From a virus: a stretch of DNA of 20,765 nucleotides. The notes beneath the pieces were generated by a model. The model did not search any database. It was not told the origin of the DNA and saw only the letters and a list, made by a program, of their open reading frames with translations. The stretch covers positions 1-20,765 of IMG/VR virus record IMGVR_UViG_3300027749_000542; one strand, written 5' to 3'. The position numbers and the translations under genes were made by a program. Positions 4,803-19,941 of this stretch are shown one piece after another. Position 1 is the stretch's first letter; each line of letters begins with the position of its first letter.

Positions 4803-7105
<2,303 letters not shown>

Positions 7106-10391: not shown

Positions 10392-11744
10392 ATGGCGGCT
10401 AATTATGTTTTACTAGAAAAGATTGTAGTCGGCGCAGCAGGCGCATCCAGCGTTACCTTCTCAAGCATCCCACAGACTGGGTACACTGATTTGGTTGTGA
10501 AGGTGAGTGTGCGCTCTAATCGTGTAAATGCTAGCGATGGAATGAACCTACAATTCAATGCTGATACCGCTAACAATTACTCAACACGCAGAATTTATGG
10601 GGTGGGTTCTGGAACACCTACCAGCGACTCACTCACTCCTTACGCAAGGATATTTCTCAATGACATTCCTGGCTCAACTGCTACTGCATCTACCTTCTGC
10701 AATACAGAGGTTTATGTTCCCAATTATCTGCTTGCCAATCAAAAATCGGTAAGCGCAGACACCACTTTTGAGAATAATACAACTGCCGCTGGATTGGTTC
10801 TTCTCGCAGGTATTTGGACTGGAACTGCTGCAATCACTTCCATCAAACTTTATCCAGATGGCGGCACACTCTTTGTCCAATACTCAACCTTCTCCCTTTA
10901 CGGCGTATCAGCCCTTGGTACTACTCCTACCAAGGCTCCCAAAGCCCTTGGTGGAGATATCATTGAAACTGATGGAACTTACTGGTATCACGCCTTCCTT
11001 GCATCTGGAACATTCACTCCTGCAACTACATTAAGTTGCGACTATTTAGTAGTCGCAGGTGGTGGTGGTGGTGGCGGTTCAATGGGTGGCGGAGGTGGTG
11101 CTGGTGGATTACTGAATGGAACCTTGGGGGTATCTACTGCTGCTACGGTTACTGTCGGAGCAGGTGGCGGTGGCGGTGCATCCACAGTTATCGGTGTATC
11201 AGGTTCTAACTCAGTATTTTCGAGCGTTACGGCAACAGGCGGCGGTGGTGGTGGTGGTTTCTCGGCTGGTCCTGCAAAGGGAGCCGACGGTGGTTCAGGT
11301 GGTGGTAGTACCTATACTGCGACTGCGAGTGCAGCATCACCCGCTGGTCAGGGTAATGCTGGTGGTGCTGGCGGATACGATGGCGGCGGAGGAATTGCAG
11401 GCGGTGGTGGCGGTGGTGCGGGTGCGGCTGGCACAGCGGGCAACACATTAAACGTTGCAGGTGGTGGCGGTAACGGCGTTAATACATATTCTGCGTGGGC
11501 AACTGCAACTGCAACTGGCGCATCAGGATACTACGCAGGTGGTGGTGGAGGTGCATCTAACTCTGGTGGCCCAGGCGGAGGTACTTCTGGTACTGGTGGC
11601 TCAGGCGGGGGCGCAGCAGGAAATAAAGCAGGAATTGGAAATGCTGCAACCGTCAATACAGGCGGAGGTGGCGGTGGTGGAGGCAACGGTTCCGCTGGTG
11701 GCGCGGGTGCGTCGGGTATTGTTATTGTTCGTTATGCAGTCTAA
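10392..11744 (+). CDS. Tandem adhesin-like protein 3 fused to glycine-rich domain
   Basis: The 450-residue third paralog has the shared beta domain in residues 1-172 (VTFSSIPQTGYTDLVV, FNADTANNYSTRRIYG, GIWTGTAAITSIKL, YSTFSLYGV). A linker GGDIIETDGTYWYHAFLASG precedes a glycine-rich region (about 223-439) that begins YLVVAGGGGGGG; the protein ends GASGIVIVRYAV. The LVVAGGGGG ... GASGIVIVRY frame is a widespread glycine-rich fibre-tip domain of environmental phages. Some Gly-rich phage adhesins form polyglycine-II bundles with exposed receptor loops, which may apply here. It is the largest and most distal-looking adhesin, hence a good candidate for the receptor-contacting tip. Confidence 0.8.
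   Translation: MAANYVLLEKIVVGAAGASSVTFSSIPQTGYTDLVVKVSVRSNRVNASDGMNLQFNADTANNYSTRRIYGVGSGTPTSDSLTPYARIFLNDIPGSTATASTFCNTEVYVPNYLLANQKSVSADTTFENNTTAAGLVLLAGIWTGTAAITSIKLYPDGGTLFVQYSTFSLYGVSALGTTPTKAPKALGGDIIETDGTYWYHAFLASGTFTPATTLSCDYLVVAGGGGGGGSMGGGGGAGGLLNGTLGVSTAATVTVGAGGGGGASTVIGVSGSNSVFSSVTATGGGGGGGFSAGPAKGADGGSGGGSTYTATASAASPAGQGNAGGAGGYDGGGGIAGGGGGGAGAAGTAGNTLNVAGGGGNGVNTYSAWATATATGASGYYAGGGGGASNSGGPGGGTSGTGGSGGGAAGNKAGIGNAATVNTGGGGGGGGNGSAGGAGASGIVIVRYAV
11058..11708 (+). repeat. Glycine-rich low-complexity coding tract (GGN repeats)
   Basis: About 217 residues of Gly-rich sequence (runs of 4-8 Gly separated by Ala, Ser, Asn and Thr) are encoded by GGT/GGC/GGA-rich DNA. The + strand is strongly G-rich and C-poor here, creating skew and long open shadow frames. 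The region encodes the distal domain of the third adhesin. Confidence 0.9.
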
Positions 11745-16365: not shown

Positions 16366-16389
16366 GCGAAAGCCCTTAAAGGCTTTCGT
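16366..16389 (+). promoter_or_regulatory. Inverted repeat / leader hairpin 1
   Basis: CGAAAGCC (16367-16374) and GGCTTTCG (16381-16388) pair perfectly across a 6-base CTTAAA loop, with a further G-U pair at the base. It is flanked by AT-rich DNA on both sides with no clean U tract. It could be an attenuator in the leader of the upstream candidate promoter or a second weak terminator. Confidence 0.55.
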
Positions 16390-16457: not shown

Positions 16458-16495
16458 TGGACAACCTTAAGGGTTGTCTGCTACACTTACATTTA
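16458..16495 (+). promoter_or_regulatory. Extended -10 promoter giving a leaderless transcript, with internal inverted repeat
   Basis: TGGACA (16458-16463) and TACACT (16482-16487) are 18 bp apart, and TGC directly before TACACT forms an extended -10. The first A of the nuclease ATG (16495) is 8 bases past the -10, the normal start position, and no ribosome binding site lies within 15 bases of it, so the mRNA is probably leaderless. The inverted repeat GACAACC/GGTTGTC (16460-16466 and 16472-16478) overlaps the -35 and fills the spacer, as an operator would. Confidence 0.6.
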
Positions 16496-16686
16496 TGACG
16501 ATAACAATTGAGGGTTACACCCTCCCCGAACACGTATCATACTCAGCAATCAACACGTACCTCCTGTGTGGGTGGCAGTATTACCTAGGCAGGTTGCTCC
16601 AACTGGAGGAAGAACCTTCGGTTTGGCTAACAGGTGGGTCGGCTTTCCATTTAGCATGTGAGAATTTCGATAGAGCAACCCTATGA
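16495..16686 (+). CDS. RecB/Cas4-like nuclease, N-terminal fragment
   Basis: This 63-residue protein carries the N-terminal signatures of phage RecB/Cas4-like PD-(D/E)xK exonucleases. EHVSYSAINTYLLCGWQYYLGR contains C25, normally the first ligand of the 4Fe-4S cluster. WLTGGSAFHLACE contains H52 and E56 of motif I. It then stops at TGA 16684-16686, where usual family members continue for about 200 residues. The next ORF begins at an overlapping ATGA and supplies the missing parts. I chose ATG 16495 because it matches a leaderless promoter and gives the family-like EGYTLPEHVSYS beginning; the alternative TTG at 16474 lies inside the promoter. Confidence 0.75.
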   Translation: MTITIEGYTLPEHVSYSAINTYLLCGWQYYLGRLLQLEEEPSVWLTGGSAFHLACENFDRATL

Positions 16687-17297
16687 GTGCCCTAGCCCTA
16701 TGGGCTGAGGCTTGGAAAGTTTGTGTTGGCGACAAGGATTTAACTAACGCCCGTACAGGTGGTCGAGCAACCAAGGCTAGACCCAACAAGGAAGATGTCG
16801 CAGTCTGGCATGAACAAGGTCCTGAGTGGGTTAATGATTATATGCAATGGCGACAGAACAATCCCCAATGGAAAATCTGGACAGCCCCAGATGGCAACCC
16901 AGGCATAGAGTTGATGCTCAATCCCGTAATAGCGGGCGTCACAGTTAAGATGGCTATTGACCGTGTGTTTGAGGTTGATGGTCAGTTGGTTATTGTTGAC
17001 CTCAAGACGAGCCAGCAGGAGCCAGCCAGCGCCCTACAACTGGGCTTCTACAAGGTAGGGATAGAACAGACCTTCGGGATAGAGGTCAAGTGGGGAACAT
17101 ACTATATGTCCCGTAAGTCTGGTACAGGAACAATGGTCGACTTGTCCTGGTATACTCTTGAGAAGTTAGAGTACCTAGTGCAAACATTTGACAAAAGCCG
17201 TAAGGCTGGTATATTCTTACCTAATGCAGAAAGTTGCAACATGTGTGGTTTTACAAAGATATGTCAATTCACCTCTAGAAAGGCAGACCAGCAATGA
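16683..17297 (+). CDS. RecB/Cas4-like nuclease, catalytic C-terminal fragment
   Basis: This 204-residue protein begins at ATG 16683, overlapping the previous stop as ATGA. It contains the rest of the RecB-type nuclease. KMAIDRVFEVDGQLVIVDLKTS has D93 (motif II) and D106-x-K108 (motif III), ALQLGFYKVG is the QLxxY-type motif, and ESCNMCGFTKICQF holds C185, C188 and C194, the last three ligands of a Cas4/AddB-type 4Fe-4S cluster. The motif I histidine and first Cys are missing here but present in the preceding small ORF, so activity would require both pieces. Such nucleases act in phage recombination and DNA-end processing. A sequencing error or frameshift joining the two cannot be excluded. 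Confidence 0.8.
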   Translation: MSALALWAEAWKVCVGDKDLTNARTGGRATKARPNKEDVAVWHEQGPEWVNDYMQWRQNNPQWKIWTAPDGNPGIELMLNPVIAGVTVKMAIDRVFEVDGQLVIVDLKTSQQEPASALQLGFYKVGIEQTFGIEVKWGTYYMSRKSGTGTMVDLSWYTLEKLEYLVQTFDKSRKAGIFLPNAESCNMCGFTKICQFTSRKADQQ

Positions 17298-17674
17298 GCG
17301 AAGAATGGAAACTACAAGTTAGTTATAAGTTACCAACAGGTGACTTGATTAACATCAGGGCTAATACGGCAGATGAATTAAGTGTAAACTTAGAATCTGT
17401 TGGTGATTATGCTACACAGATTGCTGCAGTACAGGGGAAGTTAGCAGGTGCGTTTGCCACCCTCCCTTTATCGACATCGAGTTCCACGTCAAGCACAACG
17501 CCAACATACTCCTCGCCTCCAACCCAGGCGGGTCCTCCGTCAGGTACGGGACCAACGTGTATCCACGGACCACGGAAGCACAAGTCGGGAGTATCGGCAA
17601 AGACGGGTCAACCTTACAGCATGTGGGTATGTCCACTGCCACAGGGTCCAGACCAGTGCCGACCAGCGAACTAG
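17294..17674 (+). CDS. Zinc-knuckle protein paired with the nuclease
   Basis: This 126-residue protein starts at ATG 17294, an ATGA overlap with the nuclease stop. The N-terminal half (1-55) is beta/alpha (EEWKLQVSYKLPTGDLINI; ADELSVNLESVGDYATQI). A Ser/Thr/Pro-rich linker (about 56-86) follows, then TCIHGPRKHKSG...TGQPYSMWVCPLPQGPDQC with C89, H91, C113 and C122 as a likely zinc site. The H-G-P-R...G.PY..W.CP...QC pattern recurs in small actinobacteriophage proteins near recombination genes. Binding of DNA or of the nuclease is a reasonable but unproven role. A different reading frame extends past its stop, as noted in the findings. Confidence 0.72.
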   Translation: MSEEWKLQVSYKLPTGDLINIRANTADELSVNLESVGDYATQIAAVQGKLAGAFATLPLSTSSSTSSTTPTYSSPPTQAGPPSGTGPTCIHGPRKHKSGVSAKTGQPYSMWVCPLPQGPDQCRPAN

Positions 17675-17714: not shown

Positions 17715-18500
17715 ATGCGTACATTAGTTCGTTCAGTTGGGCGTGGTACGATGGGTGGAGAACCCCTACCTAGTTGCTTTAAGGCTTTTGATAGTAATCA
17801 AATTGTAATACGCAGGGCTGAGGTATCATTGTTTGCTGCTGCGCCTGGCGCAGGCAAGTCAATGCTATCTTTGGCTCTAGCACTTAAGAGTAATGTACCA
17901 ACACTTTATATCTCTGCTGATACAAACGCACACACAATGGCAGTACGCTTAGCGTCTATGATATCTGGCAAGAGTCAAGGTGAAGTAGAAGGAAAGTTGG
18001 GTGTCGATATTGGTTGGACAAAGGCAGTCCTTGCAAAGGGCAGTCATATTGTCTGGTCGTTTGAATCAAGCCCGACGCTTGAGGATATTGATGAAGAAGT
18101 ACAAGCCTTTGAAGAGTTGTGGGGTTGCCCACCTACTCTAATCATTGTGGATAACCTAATGGATGTTGCCACTGATGGTGGCGAAGAGTTTGCATCTATG
18201 AGAGCAATCATGAAAGAGTTGAAGTACCTAGCACGACAGACAAATGCAGCAATTGTGGTCTTGCACCACACATCAGAGGGAGTCATGGGTACACCATGCC
18301 AGCCTCGCTCTGCTATTCAGGGCAAAGTCAGCCAACTGCCAGCGCTTATCTGTACCCTTGGTACGGTAGGCAATTCTATGGCGGTAGCAGTAGTTAAGAA
18401 CCGCTATGGCAAGGCAGATGCCAATGGCACAGGAGTACAGGCTTGGTTGGCATGGAACCCAGAGTATTGCTATATCAACGACATACCAGAGAATGCTTAG
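17715..18500 (+). CDS. DnaB/RecA-fold replicative helicase-like ATPase
   Basis: This 261-residue protein has a RecA-type core. RGTMGGEPLP (10-19) opens it, Walker A lies in AAPGAGKSM (42-50; K48, S49), Walker B in TLIIVDNLMD (141-150; D146), and VVLHHTSEG (181-189) is a sensor-like strand. A C-terminal VKNRYGKAD (228-236) provides basic finger residues. It is short for a full DnaB and lacks the N-terminal primase-interacting domain, like DnaB-type helicases of many actinobacteriophages. ATP-driven DNA unwinding at the phage fork is the likely role, supported by the nearby primase ORFs. A strong AGAGGGG ribosome binding site precedes ATG 17715. Confidence 0.8.
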   Translation: MRTLVRSVGRGTMGGEPLPSCFKAFDSNQIVIRRAEVSLFAAAPGAGKSMLSLALALKSNVPTLYISADTNAHTMAVRLASMISGKSQGEVEGKLGVDIGWTKAVLAKGSHIVWSFESSPTLEDIDEEVQAFEELWGCPPTLIIVDNLMDVATDGGEEFASMRAIMKELKYLARQTNAAIVVLHHTSEGVMGTPCQPRSAIQGKVSQLPALICTLGTVGNSMAVAVVKNRYGKADANGTGVQAWLAWNPEYCYINDIPENA

Positions 18501-18742: not shown

Positions 18743-19111
18743 ATGGTAACCCGTGCAAGTCACAAAGCAAGAGGAGCAACATTTGAAACCGACATCAAAG
18801 ATTTTGCCAGAGCACAGGGCTATGATGCTGAAAGACTTGCGCGGACAGGAGCAAAGGATGAAGGAGATGTTGTTATTAGAGGAGACTTCTTCGGTAGCAT
18901 TGGAGTCCTTGAAGCAAAGGCTCCAGGCGGTACGGGAAAAATTGACCTACCTGGGTGGATGAGAGAAGCACAATTAGAAGCACAGCACTATGCAGATGCT
19001 AGAGATATGCAGCGTGATACTATCCTCGCAGCGGTGGTGATTAAGGCTAGAGGCAAATCAATCGCAGATGCTTATGTAGTAATGAGGTTGGGAGATATCC
19101 TTGTTAAGTGA
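18743..19111 (+). CDS. Holliday-junction-resolvase-like PD-(D/E)xK nuclease
   Basis: This 122-residue protein matches Hjc-type and related phage nucleases. KARGATFETDIKDFARAQGYDAERL supplies the conserved glutamate (E15), GAKDEGDVVI supplies D42, and IGVLEAKA supplies the E57-x-K59 pair of the PD-(D/E)xK core. PGWMREAQLEAQHY follows as a helix. These enzymes cut branched DNA such as Holliday junctions arising in replication and packaging. The start at ATG 18743 has AGGA within about 10 bases. The 3' end overlaps the primase ORF, keeping this gene in the replication operon. The exact substrate class cannot be fixed from sequence alone. Confidence 0.78.
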   Translation: MVTRASHKARGATFETDIKDFARAQGYDAERLARTGAKDEGDVVIRGDFFGSIGVLEAKAPGGTGKIDLPGWMREAQLEAQHYADARDMQRDTILAAVVIKARGKSIADAYVVMRLGDILVK

Positions 19112-19469
19112 CCTACCTCCCATTGGACCAATTCTTGAGCACTACGGCGGAGTTGTACCCAATAGCACAGGACAGAGAAACATCAAGTGCCCATTCCATC
19201 ATGATACTCACGCTAGTGCGGGAGTTAACTTTAGAGACAACATCTTCAATTGCTTTACATGTGGCGTAAAAGGTAACAGTTTACAAATTATTGCTAGTAG
19301 AGAGGGAGTAAGTATTCGTGAAGCAGCAACTATCGCAGAAGGAATTACTGGGGAAAGCCGTGTTGAACTACACGGGAAGTATTCATCTGGCTCACGACTA
19401 CCTAGCAAGCAGAGGGATAACCAAGGAAGTAGCGCGAACGGCGCGATTAGGCGTAGTAGAACAGCCTGA
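19101..19469 (+). CDS. Primase zinc-finger (CHC2) ORF
   Basis: The start is TTG 19101, with GGGAG about 7 bases upstream, and the ORF overlaps the resolvase gene by 11 bases. The 122-residue product has a DnaG-type CHC2 zinc finger: KCPFHHDTHASAGVN with C30 and H33 or H34, and NCFTCGVKGNSLQII with C51 and C54. The helix SIREAATIAEGITG follows. After about residue 85 the sequence becomes low-complexity and basic and looks non-native. The TOPRIM part of a primase lies in the next, overlapping frame. The finger would recognise primer start sites on single-stranded template; the catalytic core must come from the second polypeptide. Confidence 0.82.
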   Translation: MLSDLPPIGPILEHYGGVVPNSTGQRNIKCPFHHDTHASAGVNFRDNIFNCFTCGVKGNSLQIIASREGVSIREAATIAEGITGESRVELHGKYSSGSRLPSKQRDNQGSSANGAIRRSRTA

Positions 19470-19941
19470 GATTGGTCATGAGATGTATGCAGGACGCTTG
19501 GCAATACCTTACATAACCAAGACAGGCGTCATGGACTTGCGCTTTAGGGCGCTGAACCCAGCAGTTGAGCCTAAGTATATGGGCATGACTGGTGCTGTTA
19601 CTAAGATGTACAACGTGTTAGATATAGACAAAGCAACTAATTGGATTGGGGTGTGTGAAGGTGAACTTGATACCATTACTCTTAGTCACTGTGTTGGGAT
19701 TCCTTGTATTGGGGTACCTGGTGCTAACTCATGGAAGAAACATTACACACGCTTGTTGGCTGACTTTGAACGAATCTATGTCTTCGCTGACGGAGACCAA
19801 GCGGGTACTGAATTCGCTCGTGGACTTGCTAAGGAACTCCCAGTTACAATCGTGCAATTGCCAGAAGGCGAAGACGTCAACTCCTGTTACATCCAGTACG
19901 GAGCCAACTACCTCAGAGAGAAAGCAGGACTAGACCAATGA
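19318..19941 (+). CDS. Primase TOPRIM ORF
   Basis: This 207-residue protein begins at GTG 19318, with AGGGAG (19303-19308) nine bases upstream. Its N-terminus includes AHDYLASRGITKEVARTARL, a typical helix between the zinc finger and the catalytic core. The RNA polymerase/TOPRIM region follows: AGRLAIPYITKTGVMDLRFR (58-77), IGVCEGELDTITL (E114, D118), VFADGDQAG (D158, D160) and LPEGEDVNS. The acidic residues bind the catalytic metals for primer synthesis. It overlaps the CHC2 ORF by 152 bases in another frame. Two-ORF primases are, as far as I recall, known in some actinobacteriophages, so the split may be functional. Confidence 0.82.
   Translation: MKQQLSQKELLGKAVLNYTGSIHLAHDYLASRGITKEVARTARLGVVEQPEIGHEMYAGRLAIPYITKTGVMDLRFRALNPAVEPKYMGMTGAVTKMYNVLDIDKATNWIGVCEGELDTITLSHCVGIPCIGVPGANSWKKHYTRLLADFERIYVFADGDQAGTEFARGLAKELPVTIVQLPEGEDVNSCYIQYGANYLREKAGLDQ

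Follow-up and report, generated by a model that had tools for sequence, protein, structure and literature searches.

Do two overlapping reading frames that share the motifs of one nuclease encode two proteins, or are they a single gene that has been broken by a sequence error or is rejoined by ribosomal frameshifting? This question is raised by a locus in the stretch of viral DNA analysed here, hereafter called the window, which comprises the 20,765 nucleotides of IMG/VR record IMGVR_UViG_3300027749_000542. Our preferred answer, to which we assign a probability of roughly 0.86, is that the locus contains two genes derived from one ancient fission, which would be coupled by a stop-start overlap and the products of which would complete one active site and one Fe-S cluster.

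Gene Organization of the Locus

The elements of the locus are the following, the second ORF lying in frame -1 relative to the first.

16495..16686, + strand: ORF1, ATG at 16495 to TGA at 16686; 63 residues with C25, H52 and E56; candidate N subunit
16669..16675, + strand: weak SD-like sequence GATAGAG ahead of the C start, where many relatives have AAGGAG
16683..16686, + strand: ATGA, in which the ORF1 stop overlaps the ORF2 start
16683..17297, + strand: ORF2, ATG at 16683 to TGA at 17297; 204 residues with the catalytic core and the C-terminal cysteines; candidate C subunit
17294..17674, + strand: next gene of the operon, Phage_gp49/phrog_364 (Pfam, PHROGs), joined by ATGA
17715..18500, + strand: DnaB-like helicase (phrog_243, E 1e-69)

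Re-reading of the sequence bears out the ORF coordinates, frames and residues that were named in a first-pass annotation, as well as its ATGA junction and its statement that no slippery heptamer occurs in 16674-16686, the only stretch that is open in both frames. ORF1 could alternatively be read from TTG 16474, giving 70 residues; since the N part of relatives is almost always 61-63 residues long, ATG 16495 is supported as its start. Junctions of the ATGA type are also found between other neighbouring genes of the window (at 17294, 19938, 20225 and 9312), so that the N/C junction resembles an ordinary junction between genes.

Downstream of the nuclease, the Phage_gp49/phrog_364 protein and the helicase are followed by a resolvase and a primase. 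This neighbourhood is a replication/recombination module, and the enzyme probably has a role in phage DNA replication or recombination; neither cas1 nor cas2 was found among the neighbouring ORFs, a part of those in the window, that were run against Pfam and PHROGs. Directly upstream of the nuclease operon lies a terminator-like element (16368-16388), consisting of the hairpin CGAAAGCC...GGCTTTCG and then an AT-rich stretch.

The primase of the module is likewise encoded by two ORFs, the zinc-binding part at 19101-19469 (phrog_360) and the TOPRIM part at 19318-19941 (phrog_849), the overlap, in the +1 frame, being about 150 bases long. Of 61 distinct loci, 60 have the same offset of 217 nt, and the divergence of the first frame at third positions drops from 0.60 to 0.17 inside the overlap; given this constant offset and lower divergence, both overlapping frames appear to be constrained. 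The geometry of the primase is thus fixed, in contrast to that of the nuclease split. Elsewhere, the window encodes a 650-residue protein with a collagen-like GPTGxTG repeat region (5153-7105) and a 450-residue protein whose C-terminal half contains long runs rich in glycine (10392-11744).

Distribution of the Split among Related Phages

The same phage has been assembled a second time (L001), and among the 10,083 bases compared this sequence has 13 mismatches with the window, none of which falls at the junction. Among the 80 nearest loci in IMG/VR, with identities of 64-100%, all 80 have the N and C parts in different frames, 79 have the stop and start overlapping as [A/G]TGA at an unchanged position, and the N part has 63 residues wherever it is complete. 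The split is also present in the cultured Planktophila phage LanE43AprF5 (OX376641), the host and isolation of which have been described (PMC10202952), and in 79 of 80 relatives of this phage, the contig of the remaining one stopping before the N part. In the sister phage E7 (OX376640), the C match has the same extent as in LanE43AprF5.

Altogether, 184 split loci were collected against 53 of the single-chain form, the former being loci rather than genomes (some contigs were fetched twice) and representing 114 distinct junctions. The N part lies upstream of the C part in every split locus that has enough flank, no C part without an N part was seen among the loci of the clade except at contig ends, and re-fusion into one ORF occurs in none of the 184. 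Single-chain forms are confined to the outgroup, which includes mycobacteriophages and others. The split is therefore far beyond chance, and it is common to a large and old family of phages from fresh and marine waters.

Family Assignment and Conserved Residues

Both ORFs belong to the same Pfam family, PF12705, which ORF1 matches with 27.5 bits over profile positions 1-50 and ORF2 with 39.2 bits over positions 83-247, both exceeding the gathering score of 22 bits. ORF2 additionally matches Cas_Cas4 (PF01930), and each ORF matches PHROG exonuclease families, ORF2 matching phrog_1870 with an E value of 4e-41. The residues on which the family assignment can be followed are located as listed below, the numbering being that of each ORF.

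16567..16569, + strand: codon of C25, the first of four predicted cluster cysteines (alignment)
16648..16662, + strand: motif I, H52 to E56, HLACE (alignment)
16959..16961, + strand: codon of D93, motif II (invariant, 184/184)
16998..17006, + strand: motif III, D106-L-K108 (invariant, 184/184)
17037..17051, + strand: QhxxY motif, Q119 to Y123 (invariant, 184/184)
17235..17264, + strand: C185, C188 and C194, the remaining three predicted cluster cysteines (invariant, 184/184)

The motif I histidine (present in 184/184 split loci), the aspartate of motif II, the DxK and the QhxxY show no variation in the 184 split and 53 single-chain loci. Position 56 is E or D in all split loci (D in four), and over both sets taken together it is E or D with one Q. 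The first cysteine column contains C in 182 of the 184 split loci, two rows being gapped, and in 53 of 53 single-chain homologues; the four family cysteines are thus kept throughout, one on the N part and three on the C part. What differs from the usual single chain of PF12705 is the presence of two ORFs in 184/184 loci of the clade, which is a difference of architecture and not of homology. The predicted cluster and activity draw on the combination of a four-cysteine Fe-S module with RecB motifs that is known for the family (PMC5704561, PMC4625639).

Predicted Structure

An AlphaFold model of the C subunit alone reaches a pLDDT of 88. Two regions are weaker, a loop close to residues 21-40 and the surroundings of the cysteines, where pLDDT is about 61; low confidence in the latter region is expected if a partner is missing. 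Foldseek places ACE1 and AdnA at the top for this model, the nearest solved folds including also MGME1, EXO5, Cas4, Dna2 and AddAB. The natural single-chain relative L183 was modelled with a pLDDT of 93 and matches AdnA, ACE1, Dna2 and Cas4 in the fold search; the break maps onto the loop between its helices 38-55 (which carries motif I) and 62-83, according to model and alignment. This alignment included fused readings of relatives in the +1 frame, as did the search of PDB by sequence profile, which retrieved AdnAB, ACE1, MGME1 and Cas4. Since the loop that is broken follows the motif I helix, the N protein should, judging from these models, be small, with about three helices, and pack on the C protein.

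Variation at the Junction

The frame of the C part relative to the N part is -1 in the clade of the window and +1 in most of the LanE43AprF5 clade, where the overlaps are of at least eight bases. Moreover, genes are inserted between the N and C parts in at least four lineages, as follows.

L011, 5835-6000: insert with a 56-residue ORF and ATGA at both ends (sequence reading)
L118-L120, 2037-2990: insert with one or two ORFs
L136, 2696-2990: insert with one or two ORFs
L146, 2669-2990: insert with one or two ORFs
L195, 214-413: insert stretch with ORFs
L239/L240: insert stretch with ORFs

Some of the inserted genes share an RSC(N/S)G stretch close to the C-terminus. Where searched (the proteins of L011, L118 and L136), they gave no clear family match, and four such proteins had no match to homing endonucleases in PHROGs. 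In the window itself nothing lies between ORF1 and ORF2, hence there is no homing endonuclease at the break.

Sequences with at least five exact SD bases precede the C start at 67 of the 114 distinct junctions (AAGGAG at 47), whereas about 5% of internal ATG or GTG codons have an SD this strong, a comparison in which related junctions are non-independent and the start with the best SD was chosen among several possible ones. The window's own SD for the C start is weak. The clade-dependent frame, together with the presence of whole ORFs between the N and C parts, indicates that the halves are separate proteins, and their separate translation is well supported by the comparison of sequences.

Weighing the Alternatives

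A one-base change could merge the two frames in a single sequence, and the first-pass annotation accordingly held a single-base error within one ORF of about 267 residues to be the main alternative. This explanation fails, and its probability is practically nil: the identical junction recurs in L001, where the few mismatches all lie elsewhere, and the same split is carried by 184 related loci that come from many samples and include a cultured, sequenced phage. The same annotation had noted that related phages all carrying a single ORF would speak against a genuine split; what we find is that every relative within the clade that has enough flank is split. A programmed ribosomal frameshift that yields a fused protein, either as the sole product or in addition to the short one, would accommodate the collinearity of the N and C parts with single-chain homologues, their usual adjacency and the longer doubly open stretches of some relatives. 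Yet the two clades would need shifts in opposite directions, -1 and +1, and the window has no slippery site. Some relatives retain a shared open stretch of just a few bases, and in seven relatives of the window (L005, L018, L021, L027, L033, L042 and L080) the C start is closely preceded, by a few bases, by a stop codon of the C frame, while several lineages have whole genes between the two parts, mostly with an SD before the C part. We thus regard frameshifting as very improbable.

It is also conceivable that the C protein alone is a working nuclease and that the N protein is a remnant or has been repurposed, as with TP1 of TTV1. The D...DxK core does lie on the C protein, which has a confident fold by itself, and exaptation after the splitting of a Cas4 gene is documented in TTV1 (PMC4625639). 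However, the median pairwise dN/dS is 0.059 for the N part (1907 pairs) and 0.107 for the C part (3621 pairs), as calculated by the Nei-Gojobori method with our own script on pairs that are non-independent; both halves are thus under purifying selection, which is at least as strong on the N part as on the C part. The N part further retains C25, H52 and E/D56, the C part retains the three partner cysteines, and the latter part is seen without the former only at a contig end. In eight near-complete genomes, PF12705 matches the N part, the C part and nothing else, which leaves no sign of a further intact copy. We regard self-sufficiency of the C protein as unlikely. The pattern of conservation shows a need for both parts, not contact between them.

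Origin of the Split

A scan with an outgroup alignment added homologues of the single-chain form as well as split forms that are more distantly related. In a maximum likelihood tree built from 39 representatives, a single branch (100/99) sets all split forms apart, and the other side includes the 'Cas4 exonucleases' of mycobacteriophages and proteins of Thermobifida phages. The branch separating the two forms is present in 100% of bootstrap trees and corresponds to one change of state in a tree that is unrooted. Because the single-chain architecture is general in the family, the natural reading of this unrooted topology would be one ancient fission of a single-chain actinophage exonuclease of the Cas4/RecB-type PD-(D/E)XK class.

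A Candidate Two-Subunit Nuclease

The proposal of the first-pass annotation, a nuclease of two subunits made by coupled translation, is favoured by the clade-wide presence of the split and by the relatives examined. The gene of a single-chain Cas4/RecB-type PD-(D/E)XK exonuclease would have been broken once into two separate genes, and ordinary stop-start coupling at the ATGA would yield two polypeptides, start of the C part being aided in many relatives by an SD within the 3' end of the first gene. The helical N subunit of 63 residues, with C25, H52 and E56, would dock on the catalytic subunit of 204 residues, which would supply D93, D106, K108 and the other three cysteines, and one active site and one Fe-S cluster would be completed across the N/C interface. 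The nuclease would then act in phage DNA replication or recombination beside the DnaB-like helicase, the resolvase and the primase. Assembly, Fe-S cluster, nuclease activity and role are predicted here from residue conservation and from knowledge of the family. As the active site and the predicted cluster are each shared out between the two proteins, joining of the two is most likely needed for function.

A more specific form of the two-subunit reading, which we put forward tentatively and consider possible but somewhat doubtful, is an obligate heterodimer with a cluster of 1+3 cysteines and an active site formed in trans, in which the split would have been kept throughout the lineage because assembly serves as control. 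If this were true, activity would require the production of both parts and the availability of iron. A two-protein Fe-S nuclease could be separated and rebuilt in vitro, which would make the role of the cluster in the family directly testable. There is also a warning for annotation, for the piece of 63 residues is easily overlooked and the C piece alone resembles a truncated exonuclease.

Comparison with Known Systems

The closest counterparts of single-chain form are the 'Cas4 family exonucleases' of actinophages, such as gp67 of Mycobacterium phage Mundrea and the exonuclease of Thermobifida phage P318, each a PF12705 protein of one polypeptide. Their motifs, four cysteines and neighbourhood in a replication module are all alike to those described here, and identity in the C part is about 33-34%; the clade of the window differs in having two polypeptides, with the break after the motif I helix in a loop. 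The nuclease domains of AdnA, AddAB, Cas4, ACE1 and Dna2 have a similar fold according to Foldseek, and in their structures the nuclease domain lies within one chain.

Most known split enzymes of phages are isolated cases, and a homing endonuclease at the break is common among such genes in pieces, but not required. Examples are the split NrdA of Aeh1, the T4 topoisomerase with mobA in gene 60 and gp43A/B of phage 25; such enzymes reassemble from the products of two ORFs, some of the breaks lie in functionally critical regions, and those of Aeh1, T4 and phage 25 are tied to homing endonucleases or intercistronic sequence (PMC2988022). Like these, ORF1 and ORF2 are collinear with one single-chain homologue; unlike them, the window shows no homing endonuclease, a large clade has the split as a fixed feature, and the division extends to the predicted metal cluster.

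TP1/gp7 of TTV1 also derives from a split Cas4 gene, with the first cysteine on one product and the other three on the other, but there the split fell within QhxxY, the catalytic residues disappeared and the N part was turned into a nucleocapsid protein (PMC4625639). The present genes share with TTV1 the division of the cysteines into 1+3 in a Cas4-family gene, and differ in that the split follows motif I and all key residues are kept. Among the open-licence papers searched, TTV1 is the only split Cas4/RecB nuclease, and no split that keeps every key residue and is fixed in a large clade was found in the same literature. Hence, while split phage enzymes as such are known, an apparently intact split nuclease of the Cas4/RecB type appears to be new, and it has stayed split across a large group of aquatic phages despite the division of its catalytic site and predicted metal cluster.
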